Counted from the first letter of the stretch, positions 26,860 through 35,021 are shown. The stretch is 48,120 nt of DNA from Flavobacteriales bacterium (GCA_020631045.1 JAHDHZ010000010.1:9168-57287), one strand, 5' to 3'. The notes: generated by a model not told the origin, from the sequence alone. A program made the numbers and translations.

Positions 26860-27516
26860 TTAAATAATTTTGTGATCGATACCGTATTTGATTAAACCTA
26901 CCGTATTTCTTACATTCAATTTATTCAGCATATTCTGCCTATGTGTATCAATGGTACGCTTACTTAAAAATAAAATCTCCGCAATCTCTTCATTAGTATG
27001 CTCTTTAGCAATCAGTTTTAAAATCTCAACCTCGCGCTTACTCAATAGCGAATCATTTTGTGAGGTGGGCGCGTAATTAGATTCAATTAACTTTAAGGCA
27101 ACCTCGTTGCTATAAAACTTATCATCTGACATGACAGTTGATATGGCTTTTACGAGCTCTTCAGTGCCGGTATTTTTCAGCAAGTAACCCTTCACTCCAA
27201 CTTGTAGCATTTGCTTTATTTTCTCAGTTTCATCATGCATAGAAAGAGCAATGATTTTAGCCTCTTTGTTCTTTTTTAAAAGTTTTTCTGCTAATTCATC
27301 TCCTTGCATATCTGGCAGATTAATGTCAAGCAAAATCACATCGTATTTAAAACAATCAAATAATTGAATTGCCATAGCTGCATCTTCTGCCTCGTCAATT
27401 TTAAATACAATTTTGTCTTGAAGCTTAAGAGACAACTTGACTCCTTCACGAAAAATCTTGTGATCTTCAATCAAGAGCACTCTTAAATTTTCTTTATGCG
27501 TTTGACGCTCACTCAT
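26860..27516 (-). CDS. NarL/LuxR-family response regulator
   Basis: 218 residues. The receiver has the phospho-acceptor in YDVILLDINLPDMQGDE and Lys in GYLLKNTGTEE. The C-terminal LuxR-type helix-turn-helix reads LLSKREVEILKLIAKEHTNEEIAEILFLSKRTIDTHRQNML. The start overlaps the kinase stop (ATGA), making it the cognate regulator of the kinase upstream. It resembles the regulator at 32501, suggesting related target sites. The gene ends convergent to the hybrid kinase, 47 bp away, with no strong hairpin between. Confidence 0.94.
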   Translation of the reverse strand: MSERQTHKENLRVLLIEDHKIFREGVKLSLKLQDKIVFKIDEAEDAAMAIQLFDCFKYDVILLDINLPDMQGDELAEKLLKKNKEAKIIALSMHDETEKIKQMLQVGVKGYLLKNTGTEELVKAISTVMSDDKFYSNEVALKLIESNYAPTSQNDSLLSKREVEILKLIAKEHTNEEIAEILFLSKRTIDTHRQNMLNKLNVRNTVGLIKYGIDHKII

Positions 27517-28715
27517 AGGCTTTGATTCTTTAAAGCAGGGATACTTACCTCGAGTGTAGTTCCCTTATTTATTTCAGATTTCAAGAAACATCTTCCTGAA
27601 AATGCTTCTACTCTTGTTTGGTAGTTCTCTAATCCGTTTCCTTTTCCCTTTGCTTTTTTAAGGTCAAAACCAACTCCGTCATCTTTGATTCGAATTGAAA
27701 TTTCTGATGCTATCTTAAAATTCAACACAATGTTTTGAGCACCTGCATACTTGATGGTATTGTTTACAAACTCTTGAATGATTCGGTAGAGGTTTACCGC
27801 CAAACTAGGATCTAAATTTGTCAATTGTTGTGTAGGATCATCTACTGCTAGTTTAGCTTTCAACTTATTTGAGTTAGATATGATGGTAAAAAGTTGTTTT
27901 GTTGCTCCTAATAAATTTCCGCTTTGAAGAGCTGCTGGCATAAGATCAAAGCAAATCTCTCTTAAATGGGTAATTGACTCATTTAAAATTTCTTTACACG
28001 AGTCATAAATCATTTTACAATTTTGATTCTCTTGTAAAAACGGCTTTAAATTAGAAATCATTAAACTCAATGCCGAGAGTTCTTGACCCAAAGAATCATG
28101 CAAATCTCTAGCTACGCGTTTTTGTTCGTTTTGTTGTGAATCTAATGAGGCCTTTAATATGTTTTGCGCTACGTTTTTCTGATCAGTAACGTCCTCTAAA
28201 ACAACTAAATACCCATTAAACTCATCGTAAGCATTTTTAATTTCTGAAGCCATGCACGAAAAAACTACACTACTTTCAAGCTTGCTTGATTGAGCGTAGA
28301 GCTCTATTTTAAACCTGTGCTCGTTTTGAAATTTTTCAAACAAAACTGGCCAAGCATCGGTATAATTTTTTTGCTCATATGAAAAATAAGAGAAAAGCTC
28401 TTTGAATTGTACTATATCATCTGAAAAATATTGTTCAACCTGACTGTTTTTAGTGAGAATTTTGCCTGTTTTATCGAGCACCAAAATAAGATTGGTAGAA
28501 GAATTAAAAATACTTGAAAAATAATCAAGAGATACTGTTGTGTGCTCAAGCTCTTGGCCTAAAATATTTACAGCCTGAATGATGGTATCTATTTCGTCTC
28601 TCTGAGAAGAAATTTTTCCTTGATATGCATAATTTCCCCTAGCATATTCAATCAATAAATTATTGACTTCATTTAACTGGGTATCTGGAATATTATATTT
28701 TGTATCAAAAATCAT
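27513..28715 (-). CDS. Cytoplasmic sensor histidine kinase (PAS plus HisKA_3, NarX/DesK type)
   Basis: 400 residues from the ATG at 28713-28715, which overlaps the previous stop as ATGA; a longer frame to 28736 is rejected. The N-terminus has a HAMP-like helical segment (YARGNYAYQGKISSQRDEIDTI) with no membrane helix, then a PAS domain (about 63-180; SIFNSSTNLILVLDKTGKIL). The HisKA_3 box is RVARDLHDSLGQELSAL with phospho-His206. The ATPase has EFVNNTIKYAG, DDGVGFDL and GKGNGLENYQTRV. It senses a cytoplasmic signal and phosphorylates the NarL regulator encoded downstream with a 4-bp overlap. Confidence 0.93.
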   Translation of the reverse strand: MIFDTKYNIPDTQLNEVNNLLIEYARGNYAYQGKISSQRDEIDTIIQAVNILGQELEHTTVSLDYFSSIFNSSTNLILVLDKTGKILTKNSQVEQYFSDDIVQFKELFSYFSYEQKNYTDAWPVLFEKFQNEHRFKIELYAQSSKLESSVVFSCMASEIKNAYDEFNGYLVVLEDVTDQKNVAQNILKASLDSQQNEQKRVARDLHDSLGQELSALSLMISNLKPFLQENQNCKMIYDSCKEILNESITHLREICFDLMPAALQSGNLLGATKQLFTIISNSNKLKAKLAVDDPTQQLTNLDPSLAVNLYRIIQEFVNNTIKYAGAQNIVLNFKIASEISIRIKDDGVGFDLKKAKGKGNGLENYQTRVEAFSGRCFLKSEINKGTTLEVSIPALKNQSL

Positions 28716-29113
28716 AATGCATATTGTTCTAGCCATTCTAGAGCAGCATGCTCATCATTGAATACTTTTACTGGGAAAGACTGCTTCTTGTAAGAGACTC
28801 TTAAAAAGAGATTGGCCAAATATGAGGTAAATACAGAGTCTACTAACATTGCTCCAGCCAAAACGCCTTCTCTTGCTTCTTTTGATTGAAAATAAGCTCT
28901 CGTTTTAGGATCTCCAGCAAATTTCATGCCTCTAATATCAGATAAAATCGGAGAAGCCTTACCCTCAACAAAAGCTTTGCGATCAACAACAACCTGACGA
29001 GCTACTTCTATATTAATGTCTATTCCAGGATGATACTTTACAGTAACTACTCCTGTATTGAGCAAGGTATATCTTGCCAATTCGGTATCGATCTTTTTTG
29101 TGGCTTTACGCAT
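28712..29113 (-). CDS. SpoIIAA-like / STAS-fold small protein (DUF7793-like)
   Basis: 133 residues, soluble. The fold pattern is alternating beta strands and helices with VTVKYHPGIDINIEVARQVV, SPILSDIRGMKFAGDPKTRAYF and a final KVFNDEHAALEWLEQY, which is the ending of SpoIIAA-like proteins seen next to Bacteroidota sensor genes. There is no obvious anti-sigma-antagonist phosphoserine. It leads the operon and its stop overlaps the kinase start, so it may tune the kinase or act as a partner sensor. Family assignment is from memory of the pattern. Confidence 0.72.
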   Translation of the reverse strand: MRKATKKIDTELARYTLLNTGVVTVKYHPGIDINIEVARQVVVDRKAFVEGKASPILSDIRGMKFAGDPKTRAYFQSKEAREGVLAGAMLVDSVFTSYLANLFLRVSYKKQSFPVKVFNDEHAALEWLEQYAL

Positions 29114-29225
29114 ATATACTTAACTATTAAAACGTATTTAACACTCTCATTATAAGTTAATTACACGATATATAAGTAAAGTTATCAAAAATAAATTTAC
29201 GCGTCAATTTAAAATCACACTCAAC

Positions 29226-31661
29226 ATGTCTAAATTCTCTTCATTCATTAACGCTGTACATGAAATTGCTAGCGATGGCATCAACAATGGTATTGTTCAT
29301 TTACCCATCAAAGATGAACCTTTGAAAGATGCTCAAATCACAATCAATGAAAAAGCATATACTACTTTCGGATCGTGCAGCTATCTTGGATTAGAATTAG
29401 ACTCGAGGGTTAAATTAGGGGCCATTGAAGCTATTGAGAAGTTTGGCAGCCAATTCTCTTCTTCAACAGCTTATACAAAAGTACCGTTATACGAAGAACT
29501 AGAAGCAAATTTTAAAACTCTATTTGCAACCCATGCTATTGCCTCTCAAACAACAACACTTGCACACATTGGGGCTATTCCGATCTTAGTTGACGACAAC
29601 GACATTGTTATTTTAGACCATCAAGTACACAATACAGTTCAGATTTCTGTGAATTTATTAAAAGCTAGAGGAATTGCTGTTGATATGATTCGACACAGCA
29701 GACTTGATATTTTAGAAGAAAAAATAAAATCTTACAGAAATAAATACAGAAGAATTTGGTATATGATTGACGGAGTATACTCTATGTATGGAGACTTTGC
29801 ACCTATCAAACAACTTGAAGGGTTACTTAATAAATATGAGCAATTATCACTTTATATAGACGATGCGCATGGCATGAGTTGCTATGGCGAGCACGGAAGA
29901 GGTTATACACTCAGCCAAGTCGATCAGCATCAGAATATGGTAATTGCAACTTCTCTAGCAAAGGGCTTTGGTTCTGGAGGTGCTGTACTTTTATTAAAAG
30001 ATGAAAATCAAAGTGAATTGATTCGAAAATGTTCTCTAACCTTGATGGCCTGTGGGCCTTCTCAACCTGCCACACTGGGCGCCTCATTGGCTTCTTCGCG
30101 CATTCATTTATCTAGTGAGATCAATAAACTACAAGATAAACTGATGACTAAAATCAGATATTGCAACCAATTGATCAAAGAACACAACCTGCCAGCAGTG
30201 AGTAATTCAGAAGGCCCTATCTTCTTTATTGCTGCGAGCCTGCCTAAAATAGCCACTAAAATCATTCAAAAAACAATGCAAGATGGCTATTATACGAACT
30301 ACGGCGTGTTTCCTGCTGTTTCTCCTAGAAATGCAGGTGTTCGATTTACCATTACTACACATCATAAAGATGAAGAAATCAAAGGGTTAATTGAATCTTT
30401 AGCTAAAAACTATCATCAAACACTGAAAGAAGAACAATTTAGTGAAGAGCGCATTTTTAGAGCATTTAAACTAGCTGCTCCTAAAAAAGAAACTATGGCT
30501 GAAAAGGTTAACCAAGGTAACTACATCATAGAACATACGCATCACATTAAAGAACAAAACAAAAAAGATTGGAACACGCATGTTGGCAAATTAAATATGT
30601 GTCATACCGAGCAACTTTCATTTTTTGAACAAACCTTTTCAAAAGAAAAAAATACAAAAGAAAATCAATGGCATTTTGACTACATAACAATCTACGATCA
30701 AGACAAGTCAAAAGTATTGCTACAAACCTTTTTTGTAACAACTATTGTTAAAGATGACATGCTTTCTTCTGCAGAAAAATCTGCTATTATTGAACAAGAA
30801 AGAGCAAACGATAAGTATCATATGACTTCAAGCTCAATGATTATGGGCACGCTTTTAACTGAAGGAGAACACCTATACATCCATCCTGAAATAAAAGACC
30901 ATAAAGGCGTATTTCAATTGTTCTTTAAAAAGATTGAGAAAATAAAACACAAGAATAAAGCCAATGCAATTATCATTAGAGACCTTTATGAAATTAACGA
31001 GCAACTTACTAGCTTATTTATTGCTATGGGATTTGTTAAAGCTGAAGTTGGCAACAACAATGTTGCAACATTAAAAGGCATTAGTAATGCTGATGAATAC
31101 ATTGAACATTTAAGCTATAAATCAAGAAAGCACGTAAGAAAATACATACTTAAACACACAGAAGATTTTATAATCATCCATAATAAAGAAGAGGCTCTAC
31201 AAGAAATTGACACCATCTATCAACTGTACTTAAATGTTAAAAACAAGAGCCTTAAAATCAACACTTTTGAATTACCGATTGAATTTTTCAGCGAAGCGTT
31301 TTGTGATGACAAATGGGATGTTACTTTGATAAGAAATAGATCATCAAAGGCCCTGGTTGGATTTATGCTTAGTTGCATAGAAAATAACAACTATTATACA
31401 AAAGTTACAGGTTACGACCCTGCTTATCAGGCTTCTCACTTTATCTATAGACAAGGTCTGTTTCAATCTATTAAAAGGGCTATAGACTTAAATTTAGATG
31501 CCGTTCAATTCGGAATGGCTGCTGATATTGAAAAGAAGAGGTTAGGCGCCCAACAACATGCTCTTTTTGCTTTTTCGCAAATTCAAGATCAATTCAACAT
31601 AGAGTACATCAATGCCCTCAACAAAAACACTGTAAACACTGAAGATATAGTGATTGCATAA
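29226..31661 (+). CDS. Fusion of PLP-dependent alpha-oxoamine synthase and GNAT/FemAB-like N-acyltransferase
   Basis: 811 residues. Residues 1 to about 405 form an alpha-oxoamine synthase: FGSCSYLGLE, FSSSTAYTKVPLYEELE, YIDDAHGMSCYGEHGRG (D212, H215) and the PLP lysine K246 in SLAKGFGSGG. The family condenses an acyl-CoA with an amino acid (BioF, serine palmitoyltransferase, CqsA, cysteate acyltransferase). Residues from about 430 form an acyltransferase-like module with HLSYKSRKHVRKYI, YYTKVTGYDPAYQASHFIYRQGLF and FGMAADIEKKRLGAQ, like peptidoglycan-bridge/GNAT-type N-acyltransferases. One chain could therefore make and then N-acylate a sphingoid or sulfonolipid-type base. The product and signalling role are inference. 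It is followed by a strong terminator and is divergent from the SpoIIAA-like operon. Confidence 0.85.
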   Translation: MSKFSSFINAVHEIASDGINNGIVHLPIKDEPLKDAQITINEKAYTTFGSCSYLGLELDSRVKLGAIEAIEKFGSQFSSSTAYTKVPLYEELEANFKTLFATHAIASQTTTLAHIGAIPILVDDNDIVILDHQVHNTVQISVNLLKARGIAVDMIRHSRLDILEEKIKSYRNKYRRIWYMIDGVYSMYGDFAPIKQLEGLLNKYEQLSLYIDDAHGMSCYGEHGRGYTLSQVDQHQNMVIATSLAKGFGSGGAVLLLKDENQSELIRKCSLTLMACGPSQPATLGASLASSRIHLSSEINKLQDKLMTKIRYCNQLIKEHNLPAVSNSEGPIFFIAASLPKIATKIIQKTMQDGYYTNYGVFPAVSPRNAGVRFTITTHHKDEEIKGLIESLAKNYHQTLKEEQFSEERIFRAFKLAAPKKETMAEKVNQGNYIIEHTHHIKEQNKKDWNTHVGKLNMCHTEQLSFFEQTFSKEKNTKENQWHFDYITIYDQDKSKVLLQTFFVTTIVKDDMLSSAEKSAIIEQERANDKYHMTSSSMIMGTLLTEGEHLYIHPEIKDHKGVFQLFFKKIEKIKHKNKANAIIIRDLYEINEQLTSLFIAMGFVKAEVGNNNVATLKGISNADEYIEHLSYKSRKHVRKYILKHTEDFIIIHNKEEALQEIDTIYQLYLNVKNKSLKINTFELPIEFFSEAFCDDKWDVTLIRNRSSKALVGFMLSCIENNNYYTKVTGYDPAYQASHFIYRQGLFQSIKRAIDLNLDAVQFGMAADIEKKRLGAQQHALFAFSQIQDQFNIEYINALNKNTVNTEDIVIA

Positions 31662-32247: not shown

Positions 32248-32465
32248 AATAATTGTATTTAAAAGGTTTATACCATTAAGATAGAGATCAATCAAAGGCA
32301 CTAAAACAGTATGTTTTGTTAAATTAAAAATTAGCAGCAATCACGGTACGCAACTATTATGATCTTACGTATTAACACCAAGTTAATCAAGCACCTAAAC
32401 AACACATTAAAACACTGATTTTGAGTATATAAACTTACATTTAAGCAATGTATTTTTAATACCAT

Positions 32466-32482
32466 TGTGTGTAAAACACACA
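32466..32482 (+). promoter_or_regulatory. Perfect inverted repeat TGTGTGT-AAA-ACACACA upstream of the NarL regulator
   Basis: Seven-base arms separated by AAA, ending 18 bp before the ATG at 32501. The size and symmetry fit a dimer operator, possibly an autoregulatory site of the regulator downstream. An AT-rich stretch precedes it. It is too GC-poor for a terminator and lacks a T-run. No second copy was found by eye. Confidence 0.5.
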
Positions 32483-32500
32483 GAACCCACAGGAAAGCAC

Positions 32501-33148
32501 ATGAATTCGACTTCAATACTACTTGCAGATGATCACCATTTATTTCGACTCAGTCTAAAATTATTACTCAAAAAAAATCAAGCATTCAATGTAGTAGGAG
32601 AAGCCTCTAACGGCATTGAGGTTTTAGATTGGATAAAGCAAAACTATTGTCCTGACATCATTATAATGGATGTAAATATGCCTGAGAAAAATGGCATTGA
32701 CACCACTTATGAACTTAAACAAAGTTCAGACATCAATGTAAAAGTGCTCGCTTTATCAATGAATTCTGAGTATCATTACATCGATTCAATGCTAAAAGTA
32801 GGTGCTGACGGCTACATCACAAAATCTTCTTCTGAAGATGAACTCAATGAAGCCATTAACAACTTAATCATTTCTAATAAAAAATACTTTAGCCAATCTG
32901 TGAAAGAAGTCATGGTCAATTCTTTCATTGACCATGATCAAGTTAAGTTTATCGACCAAAACTTTTCAGAGCGAGAGCTTGAAGTGCTCAAACTTGTAAG
33001 TGCTGGGCTAACTAACGAAGAAATTGCCGAACAATTATTTTTGAGCAAACGAACAATTGAGTCCCACAGAAGAAACATGCTCAACAAAACTGGATTAAAT
33101 AACACTGCAGCGCTTATCAAATATGCTTGTGATCAGAAGTTAATCTAA
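32501..33148 (+). CDS. NarL/LuxR-family response regulator (orphan)
   Basis: 215 residues from the ATG at 32501. An AGGAAA about 6-8 bp upstream is an unusual Shine-Dalgarno-like match for this genome and supports this start over one 36 bp upstream. The receiver has DD (ILLADDHHLF), the phospho-acceptor in IIIMDVNMPEKNG and Lys in GYITKSSSEDE. The C-terminal LuxR HTH is ERELEVLKLVSAGLTNEEIAEQLFLSKRTIESHRRNML, close to the regulator at 26860. No kinase is adjacent; the only other gene is the unknown protein 8 bp downstream. It may share a kinase with the paralogue. Confidence 0.93.
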   Translation: MNSTSILLADDHHLFRLSLKLLLKKNQAFNVVGEASNGIEVLDWIKQNYCPDIIIMDVNMPEKNGIDTTYELKQSSDINVKVLALSMNSEYHYIDSMLKVGADGYITKSSSEDELNEAINNLIISNKKYFSQSVKEVMVNSFIDHDQVKFIDQNFSERELEVLKLVSAGLTNEEIAEQLFLSKRTIESHRRNMLNKTGLNNTAALIKYACDQKLI

Positions 33149-33156
33149 TCTGCTTA

Positions 33157-33783
33157 ATGCTTTTAAAAAAATTAAAACTTCGTTTATTAAAAAGTACTTA
33201 TGGATATAAATACTACAGAAATTACATTGTAGATAACTACAAAAATCTTGACTTTGAATTTTATGAAAAAATCATTGAAGAATTTTCAAGTCTAAAAACT
33301 GTTAAAAGCAATTCAGAAACTAAAATTGCGCACTTAGCAAAAGAACATGATTTAAAAGAAATTGAATCTTTAAACGCTAACAAAATCGTAATTTATCCTC
33401 CAAAAATTATTGGATTGAGAATCATAATCTTAAGAAAGAAAGTTGGGCAATATACCACAAAGCATGAATTCCATTTTTTCAATGATCTGTTAGCATACGC
33501 TAATATAAAATTCGAAACTTCAAATGGAACATCAAAAAATCAACTTAAAAAATTGTTTTACAGTAAATATTTGAAAGAAAACAGCAGCCCACAAGGGTTT
33601 AAGGTTAAAACTTCAGATAATGTTCTTATTATGTTAAAAGAAGGTGTAAATTTTAATCTACATTATTTACCTACAAAAAACTCTTTTTTTATTGATTACA
33701 TAAAAGAAATGAAAATAAAAAAAGAATTTAAAAACAGCCAACACCAGAAGAAAATCAAGGAAGAAATTCTAAATACTATTTAA
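33157..33783 (+). CDS. Hypothetical Lys-rich protein co-transcribed with the NarL regulator
   Basis: 208 residues, starting 8 bp after the regulator stop, so probably in one operon. No signal peptide or membrane segment. It is very basic and AT-rich (KKLKLRLLK..., IKEMKIKKEFKNSQHQKKIK), and shows alternating strands and helices, including FYEKIIEEFSSLKTV and KIIGLRIIILRKK. No motif was recognised; the basic ends could suit nucleic-acid binding, but that is only composition. The stop overlaps the convergent peptidase stop by 8 bp. Confidence 0.6.
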   Translation: MLLKKLKLRLLKSTYGYKYYRNYIVDNYKNLDFEFYEKIIEEFSSLKTVKSNSETKIAHLAKEHDLKEIESLNANKIVIYPPKIIGLRIIILRKKVGQYTTKHEFHFFNDLLAYANIKFETSNGTSKNQLKKLFYSKYLKENSSPQGFKVKTSDNVLIMLKEGVNFNLHYLPTKNSFFIDYIKEMKIKKEFKNSQHQKKIKEEILNTI

Positions 33784-34996
33784 AGCTTGAAACTTTTTTC
33801 AAGATTTTTTCCACCGCATCTTTATGAACCGTGTAGGTCATGATTTTGAGCTTCACATAATCTTCATGATATCTATAATACCCCTCAAGCTTTCCGTTTC
33901 TAGCTCCACTACCTGAATCTTTGACTAAAAACCAAGTATCACCCTCTTTTTCAGCCCATCCAATCAAATGAATGGCATGATCATCTGTAGTTGCTCCATT
34001 AGAAAAACGCATTTGACGAGCATTTTCATCAATATAGTCTGACGGAATATCAAAAGAAGGCACTACGGCTAAATCATTGTAAGCATTGTAACCCGCCTCT
34101 GAAACATCTCCGCCAATTGAGATGGTGTACCCTGATTTTATAGCGCCTTTAATGCCCGATAAAAAATCATCTAAGGGCACATTATTGTAATCTGTCGAAT
34201 TCCACCAGTTGTCTGGCACATCGTACTCTGCTTTTTGATAGTAGGGCTTTTCTAATAACGACATAAAATTCACATAGTCTTCAGGCTTAATCTTCAAGTA
34301 TTCTCTCATATAACCTGTTGGACTATAATAAGTATCTCCATCAACTTTTACACGCTGGGGCGGAGCGCCTAAATAATGATCTAAGATTGATTTGATATTC
34401 TCAATAGCTGCTGCTTCATTCCAAGCATTGCTTTGTTTAAGTGAATGCAAATAACTTTTCATTTCATTAAACATCGCCTTATGGTCATGGTACTTTGTGT
34501 TTAAGGCATTACCTGAATACTGATCTGCTGGCATTAAACCATGCATTTTCATCATTCTTGCTAAGGCATTGGTCTCTGAACCTTCTCCAAAAAACGACTT
34601 GCCTCTTGTTTGAATAAACTCACGTGCTTTTTCAATATATTCAAAATATACCAAGTACAATTCTGAAAGATCAACCTCTTTACCGCTGATACGCTTCACT
34701 TCTGACTCATAAAAAGAAGTAGTTGAAAAACACCAACACGTGCCTGTTCGACCTTGTGAAATTGGTTTTTGGCACCAGGTGGTCTGAAAGTCTTCAAAAC
34801 CAGGGGCCTCAACCCCACTTTGATCCATCTTAAAAGCCTTGCGCTTAGGCTTTGAAGATTTCGTATCTGTTAATCCTGATTTTATTTTTGAATAAAATTT
34901 GTTTTCATATTCAATCATTGAGGCACGGTCTTTAGTTTGTTGAGCAGATAAACTAAAAGCAACGAACATTATTGCGAGACAAAAAAGTGACTTCAT
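33776..34996 (-). CDS. Secreted C1-family cysteine peptidase (bleomycin hydrolase/aminopeptidase C type)
   Basis: 406 residues from the ATG at 34994-34996; a TTG five codons earlier is less likely. A signal peptide (KSLFCLAIMFVAFSLSAQ) precedes a papain-like domain with catalytic Cys in QGRTGTCWCFSTTSFYESE and His in TTDDHAIHLIGWAEKEGDTWFLVKDSG. The usual Asn of the triad is Asp in VKDSG, as I recall for Bacteroidota bleomycin-hydrolase relatives, so it is probably active. The end (YRYHEDYVKLKIMTYTVHKDAV) matches that group. It follows the giant T9SS protein by 25 bp and may cleave it or its partners on the surface; that link is inferred from the operon. Confidence 0.9.
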   Translation of the reverse strand: MKSLFCLAIMFVAFSLSAQQTKDRASMIEYENKFYSKIKSGLTDTKSSKPKRKAFKMDQSGVEAPGFEDFQTTWCQKPISQGRTGTCWCFSTTSFYESEVKRISGKEVDLSELYLVYFEYIEKAREFIQTRGKSFFGEGSETNALARMMKMHGLMPADQYSGNALNTKYHDHKAMFNEMKSYLHSLKQSNAWNEAAAIENIKSILDHYLGAPPQRVKVDGDTYYSPTGYMREYLKIKPEDYVNFMSLLEKPYYQKAEYDVPDNWWNSTDYNNVPLDDFLSGIKGAIKSGYTISIGGDVSEAGYNAYNDLAVVPSFDIPSDYIDENARQMRFSNGATTDDHAIHLIGWAEKEGDTWFLVKDSGSGARNGKLEGYYRYHEDYVKLKIMTYTVHKDAVEKILKKVSSFK

Positions 34997-35021
34997 TCTT
35001 TTTTTTAGCAAAGATAAGCCT

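Follow-up and report, generated by a model that had tools for sequence, protein, structure and literature searches.

A fused alpha-oxoamine synthase and N-acyltransferase encoded beside a conserved DUF7793 regulatory module in Bacteroidota

Results

A single open reading frame in a 48,120-nucleotide stretch of Flavobacteriales DNA (the window) encodes a PLP-dependent alpha-oxoamine synthase (AOS) fused to a GNAT-like N-acyltransferase, with intact catalytic residues in both halves, and lies beside a conserved module composed of a small DUF7793 protein of SpoIIAA-like fold and membrane-free regulatory proteins. In relatives whose regulator is of the AraC type, operator-like repeats stand upstream of the synthase gene. 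At even confidence, we propose that the fusion makes an N-acylated amino-ketone lipid on one chain and that a dedicated circuit senses this lipid and regulates its own synthase, either for homeostasis or as an autoinducing system. The features of the locus are as follows.

26860-27516, minus strand: NarL/LuxR-type response regulator, presumed output; ATGA overlap with the kinase gene
27513-28715, minus strand: histidine kinase (HisKA_3 and HATPase_c) without a transmembrane segment, carrying the N-terminal segment common to the regulators of the module; likely start 28715
28712-29113, minus strand: DUF7793 protein, 133 aa, SpoIIAA-like fold, putative sensor or carrier of the lipid product (PF25056, E 1e-25; AF2 pLDDT 90.9; Foldseek match 2q3l)
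29114-29225, no strand: 112-bp intergenic region separating the synthase gene from the divergent DUF7793-kinase-regulator operon
29226-31661, plus strand: fused synthase, 811 aa, ATG start (ORF, AF2 model, homologues)
29226-30434, plus strand: N-half, about residues 1-403, PLP-dependent AOS (Aminotran_1_2, solved relatives, residue alignment)
30489-30512, plus strand: low-confidence linker, residues 422-429 (pLDDT <50)
30522-31625, plus strand: C-half, about residues 433-800, double GNAT-like N-acyltransferase of the FemAB_like/Acetyltransf_6 kind (PF13480, PF04339, hhalign, invariance)
32465-33148, plus strand: second NarL-type response regulator, an orphan whose link to the module is unproven

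Both halves of the fusion carry conserved catalytic residues

The fusion of an AOS to an N-acyltransferase, claimed by a first-pass annotation of the window, was recovered as described: Pfam and the AF2 model (mean pLDDT 90.4, both halves confident) agree that the AOS domain comes first and the GNAT domain second. We rejected an assembly artefact as the cause of the join, as the same 790-840-aa frame recurs in dozens of independent genomes; the fusion is real.

Aminotran_1_2 spans residues 69-392 of the N-half (7e-18), and the catalytic lysine K246 and the DDAH motif (D212-D213-A214-H215) stand exactly where they had been reported. Across 56 homologues, the stacking residue H135, the D212/H215 pair, K246 and the carboxylate-binding R373 are invariant, and these five residues align with H133, D204, H207, K236 and R361 of E. 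coli BioF, which together with the AOS fold establishes membership of the AOS superfamily. By sequence and by fold alike, the nearest solved relative is Alb29 (8xha/8i7u/8xhd/8xhk), a single-domain enzyme with ~25% identity to the N-half and no GNAT half, followed by Sphingobacterium serine palmitoyltransferase (SPT), with BioF/Kbl also among the nearest structures.

Assignment to a named AOS family fails throughout. The best NCBIfam model, PRK07505 (NF005697), which is named merely 'hypothetical protein' and describes a single-domain subfamily with stand-alone relatives in Bacteroidota genomes (L030, L031), gives 272 bits against a cut-off of 342. BioF (8-amino-7-oxononanoate synthase) is rejected at 144.7 bits (TIGR00858 cut-off 426), and Kbl and ALAS lie far below their NCBIfam cut-offs. 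The same holds for the memberships to which the first-pass annotation had pointed: the SPT models give 138, 133 and 98 bits against cut-offs of 640, 500 and 670, and the CqsA/LqsA autoinducer synthase model (NF005526) gives 54 bits against 428. As a cysteate C-acyltransferase (SulA/CapB), the fusion reaches ~52 bits to PDB 28eh and ~45 to 7u7h, far under a separate enzyme of its own genome, which scores 577 and 514 bits to the same two structures and is encoded on contig C46 (G000:C46, L034 7050-11231) in a sulfonolipid-like cluster that also holds a CapA-like cysteate synthase (357 bits, cut-off 600), an SDR gene and a GNAT-like gene. The amino acid and the acyl donor are therefore not readable from family membership.

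The C-half belongs, as first suggested, to a family of acyl-transfer enzymes. Acetyltransf_6 (PF13480) matches residues 634-770 with 22.9 bits, just over its cut-off of 22, and FemAB_like (PF04339) reaches 33.2 bits (cut-off 27) in the genome scan, although it is unlisted in the hmmscan of the protein alone; at E<=1e-3 the two families match 32 and 16 of the 56 homologues, respectively. By hhalign, the entire C-half matches over 347 columns (98.4%) a 410-aa GNAT that the same genome encodes as a separate protein. No PDB chain was found to match the C-half profile, and a Foldseek search with the full fusion model returned AOS matches alone among its top 50, so the C-terminal fold rests on the HMM/HHM matches and on predicted secondary structure. 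Homologues average 31% identity to the window protein in this half, compared with 46% in the N-half. Despite this lower overall conservation, K509, D511, S519, E523, R526, G541, G547, R585, Y741, K770 and G774 are invariant in the 56 homologues, which argues for an active enzyme rather than a degenerate tail.

The fusion is widespread but patchy

A search for the fused architecture yielded 114 non-redundant full-length homologues, mostly from Bacteroidota with a few from Gammaproteobacteria and Cyanobacteria. A contig search with a 36-row alignment found 572 relatives, whereas a single-sequence query of the contigs gave none. Full-length fusions occur in genomes G002 (60% identity), G003, G055, G047 and G015 (two copies) and in a Flavobacteriaceae-like family, and named carriers among the best 80 of the 572, a set skewed to the nearest relatives, include Lutibacter flavus, Algibacter lectus, Crocinitomix catalasitica, Arenibacter algicola, Aequorivita antarctica (two copies), Ferruginibacter paludis and Pontibacter qinzhouensis. 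Some metagenome bins, such as that of L148, may carry an erroneous taxon label. Plasmid records held no fusion and no place covering 80% of the query; their best matches were relatives of the N-half, stand-alone AOS enzymes of rhizobia.

In a tree, the fused proteins group apart from BioF, Kbl, the cysteate enzyme and the rhizobial stand-alone relatives, with stand-alone Bacteroidota enzymes (G053, G043) branching near the base of the fused group; three reference rows sit on very long branches, which leaves their exact position unsure. In one Pseudomonadales bin (L163 4539-11145), a methyltransferase gene lies between two tandem fused synthases that closely resemble each other.

DUF7793 and a cytosolic regulator accompany the synthase

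The first-pass annotation noted two-component genes to the left (26860-28736, minus strand) and a regulator, here of the NarL type, to the right (32465-33148, plus strand); both are real, and the link of the fusion to a regulatory locus is far stronger than that annotation could know. The most telling neighbour, unmentioned there, is the DUF7793 gene at 28712-29113, whose product scores 90.3 bits against the PF25056 cut-off of 26. DUF7793 is the best-conserved neighbour of the synthase, lying within 3.5 kb of 96 of the 114 non-redundant fusions (86 divergent, 10 co-directional) and near 88 of the 101 that have both flanks longer than 1.2 kb. The family is rare: of 118 genomes sampled from across the phylum, 7 hold it, with nine copies above the cut-off in all. 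It is present in all 20 fusion-bearing genomes checked; within the phylum-wide sample it occurs in 5/5 fusion genomes versus 2/113 others (Fisher p 1.2e-7, unlisted genomes being taken as fusion-free).

The regulator encoded beside DUF7793 has a shared N-terminal segment and usually a PAS domain, together with one of several outputs. Among 73 scanned, 42 contain an AraC-type HTH and 30 a kinase ATPase domain, the kinase type comprising 22 HisKA_3 and 7 HisKA proteins. A hydrophobic segment is absent from 85 of 86 module regulators and from the window kinase, so sensing is probably cytosolic. In the window, the DUF7793, kinase and NarL-type regulator genes overlap by ATGA at both junctions, implying a single operon that points away from the synthase.

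A well-supported subclade (L163, L215, L199, L184, L195, L197, L028, L220 and L208; support 94/98) spanning Gammaproteobacteria, Xenococcaceae, Saprospiraceae and L028 has no DUF7793, indicating that the enzyme works without it there. Neighbours within this subclade include an AMP-binding, acyl-AMP-ligase-like gene with an ACP gene (L215) and a fatty acid hydroxylase (L199), in keeping with a chemistry of fatty acyl groups. The cyanobacterial UBA8530 copies (L174 4369-9847, L188 8451-9395) also stand without DUF7793 and are flanked by HisKA kinases with hydrophobic N-termini. Conversely, L230 carries DUF7793, AraC and MauE genes without a synthase.

Several further arrangements were observed. 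Four tandem DUF7793 genes adjoin one synthase at L224 3560-5351, and genome G055 holds seven or eight DUF7793 copies, most of them away from any synthase. Intact DUF7793 and AraC genes stand beside a frameshifted synthase at L072 7934-10361 and beside a truncated synthase remnant at L226 3672-4181. A MauE gene, often with a small exported DUF6520 protein, follows the regulator in ~45 mostly AraC-type loci (L065-L072, L112-L135, L183-L222), with S9 peptidase and SusD-like genes often nearby. Seemingly similar C1-peptidase-like proteins with a QGRTGTCW motif are encoded near the synthase in the window (33776-35011) and at L208 4431-5645, which may be coincidence. In ~42 loci, RteC, TraG P-loop, DUF4099/DUF3945 topoisomerase and other conjugative-transposon-type genes flank the synthase (for example L065 6915-7745, L118 215-2635 and L071 4526-5971), so the module seemingly lies on or beside integrative conjugative elements.

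A proposed reaction and circuit

From these features we infer the substrates, the reaction order, the DUF7793 ligand and the homeostatic or signalling role of the product, as follows. The PLP half would carry out a decarboxylative condensation between an amino acid and a fatty acyl-CoA or acyl-ACP, giving an alpha-amino-ketone, and the GNAT half would add a second acyl group to the free amine, yielding an N-acyl amino-ketone, an oxidised-ceramide-like lipid. N-acylation would shield an amino-ketone that is otherwise unstable. DUF7793 may then sense the lipid, or the loading of the membrane with it, inside the cell and relay this to the cytosolic PAS regulator, a kinase with its response regulator in the window and an AraC-type protein in many relatives, which would in turn control the synthase gene and probably other genes too.

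The logic of condensation followed by N-acylation, already put forward in the first-pass annotation, is supported by comparison with Caulobacter, where Spt and bCerS catalyze consecutive cytoplasmic steps before the periplasmic CerR (PMC11087976), so that condensation and N-acylation on one chain match Spt and then bCerS. The Caulobacter ceramide route differs in using separate genes, whereas the window fusion falls short of the SPT models and has no conserved CerR-like reductase neighbour; in the neighbourhoods of the 114 fusions, no ketoreductase is conserved. Given that Alb29, the closest solved AOS, was crystallised with L-glutamate, it is not certain that the amino acid is serine-like or that the acyl donor is long-chain.

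The synthase gene may be controlled by its own module

Of 47 AraC-type loci, 30 have a tandem direct repeat of GGATTA with ~21 bp spacing shortly before the synthase, where shuffles predict 0.2 and the other strand has none, compared with 1 of 32 kinase-type loci. Across 689 kb, 56 of 75 such sites fall in the intergenic region before the synthase, although these counts are inflated by related loci and come from the very sequences that served to define the pattern. Direct repeats spaced by ~21 bp are usual for AraC sites. The repeat is thus supporting evidence, short of proof, that the module controls its own synthase. A test of whether the same operator drives the MauE/DUF6520 genes gave one weak site and hence no support for this idea.

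Tentatively, the family may represent a new and widespread class of lipid signalling, in which one polypeptide would make the N-acyl amino-ketone, a CRAL-TRIO-like DUF7793 would hand this product to interchangeable cytosolic regulators with HisKA_3, HisKA or AraC outputs, the synthase would stand under its own regulator, and the Flavobacteriaceae module, often found beside RteC-type conjugative-element genes, might govern transfer. It is possible, and to be held just as loosely, that the fusion is instead a membrane lipid enzyme making a ceramide-like or amino-ketone lipid, with a purely homeostatic DUF7793-regulator unit that senses lipid load and adjusts the synthase gene only, in the absence of any cell-cell signal. 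Such homeostasis is consistent with an operator-like repeat found almost only upstream of the synthase, with the cytosolic location of the regulators and with the module-free subclade and its fatty acid hydroxylase or acyl-AMP-ligase/ACP neighbours; however, the patchy spread of the fusion better suits an accessory or signalling role, as do the conjugative-element context in many Flavobacteriaceae and the apparent DUF7793-AraC unit that lacks a synthase (L230).

The DUF7793 fold points to a possible lipid ligand

The best solved Foldseek match of the DUF7793 model is 2q3l (E 6e-5, moderate TM ~0.57, 14% identity), which has a hydrophobic cavity like those of CRAL-TRIO/Sec14 carriers and for which its authors proposed membrane-linked binding of nonpolar ligands (PMC2954212). 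SpoIIAA-like 2q3l and 2ook (DUF3478) have this fold in common with DUF7793, but no link of either protein to a synthase or regulator is known. A distant DUF7793 at L227 4303-4713 sits in a menaquinone cluster between enoyl-CoA-hydratase-family (MenB-like) and UbiA (MenA-like) genes, hinting at a hydrophobic ligand for that copy. Together, the 2q3l cavity and the menaquinone-cluster copy make lipid binding by DUF7793 plausible but unproven.

The main alternative to a lipid ligand, which we regard as rather unlikely, is that DUF7793 acts as a STAS/SiaC-type partner switch on the stalk of the kinase or AraC protein, sensing the synthase protein or phosphorylation. STAS-like proteins often serve in protein-protein switching rather than in ligand binding, further Foldseek matches of DUF7793 include STAS proteins/anti-sigma antagonists and SiaC, among them SiaC with the cyclase SiaD (7e6g), and the regulators have a conserved N-terminal segment in common. 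Nevertheless, the cavity-bearing 2q3l remains the best fold match, the only PDB match of the DUF7793 profile is an uncharacterised protein (3bl4), so that sequence gives no direct tie to partner switching, and the copy in the menaquinone cluster hints at a hydrophobic ligand.

Other products are less probable

An AOS encoded beside a kinase and a regulator recalls CqsA/CqsS and LqsA/LqsS/LqsR, and the fusion could accordingly make a diffusible autoinducer that is released and that neighbouring cells perceive by means of the adjacent kinase. The UBA8530 copies with their hydrophobic flanking kinases, the suggested own-promoter control and L230, which looks like a listening-only unit, are in keeping with this idea. 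We nonetheless judge it improbable: the autoinducer-synthase score is an eighth of its cut-off, the Cqs and Lqs systems have neither a GNAT half nor DUF7793, and their sensors are membrane kinases, whereas the window kinase and 85 of the 86 module regulators lack a hydrophobic segment, and an N-acylated, two-chain product would diffuse poorly.

Poorer still are the prospects of a FemAB-type C-half that uses aminoacyl-tRNA or another donor to form an amino-ketone peptide conjugate in place of an N-acyl lipid. The FemAB_like name of PF04339 and a predicted double-GNAT layout reminiscent of Fem proteins speak for it, but many acyltransferases fall within PF13480 and PF04339, and PF04339 also occurs in the ceramide producer Caulobacter vibrioides, home of the bCerS CC_1154, a co-occurrence that is suggestive. 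Finally, a one-chain sulfonolipid or classical sphingolipid synthase, as the first-pass annotation had envisaged from the AOS and N-acyltransferase logic and in keeping with SPT among the nearest solved structures, is highly improbable, because the genome carries its separate cysteate-acyltransferase set on C46, the SPT models are far from satisfied and no ketoreductase accompanies the fusion.

Discussion

The statement that no fusion of this kind had been described holds in part. In M. tuberculosis BioF2 (Rv0032), a protein of unknown function, an additional N-acyltransferase region precedes the AOS; SPTs are the nearest validated relatives of BioF2, which among mycobacteria is reported only from the M. 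tuberculosis complex (PMC12910592, PMC6923341). It resembles the window fusion in joining an AOS and an N-acyltransferase on one chain but has the reverse order, with the additional domain before the AOS, and we therefore rejected a BioF2-type assignment. For the order and module found here the statement stands: the literature searched, largely without subscription papers, contained no description of the AOS-then-GNAT fusion, its spread or the DUF7793-regulator module, and likewise no account of DUF7793 or of aminoketone quorum sensing in Bacteroidota. The system would thus join a new regulatory module to the AOS-driven synthesis of a lipid or signal.

If the proposed function is right, it would add a common lipid-producing and lipid-sensing circuit to the biology of the Bacteroidota, offer a natural example of the first two steps of bacterial ceramide synthesis on a single chain, of value in settling their order and in biocatalysis, and provide a testable function for DUF7793, so far a nameless family. 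Because carriers are available in culture, knock-outs and lipidomics can already be attempted. The finding may also bear on M. tuberculosis BioF2, which joins similar parts in the opposite order.
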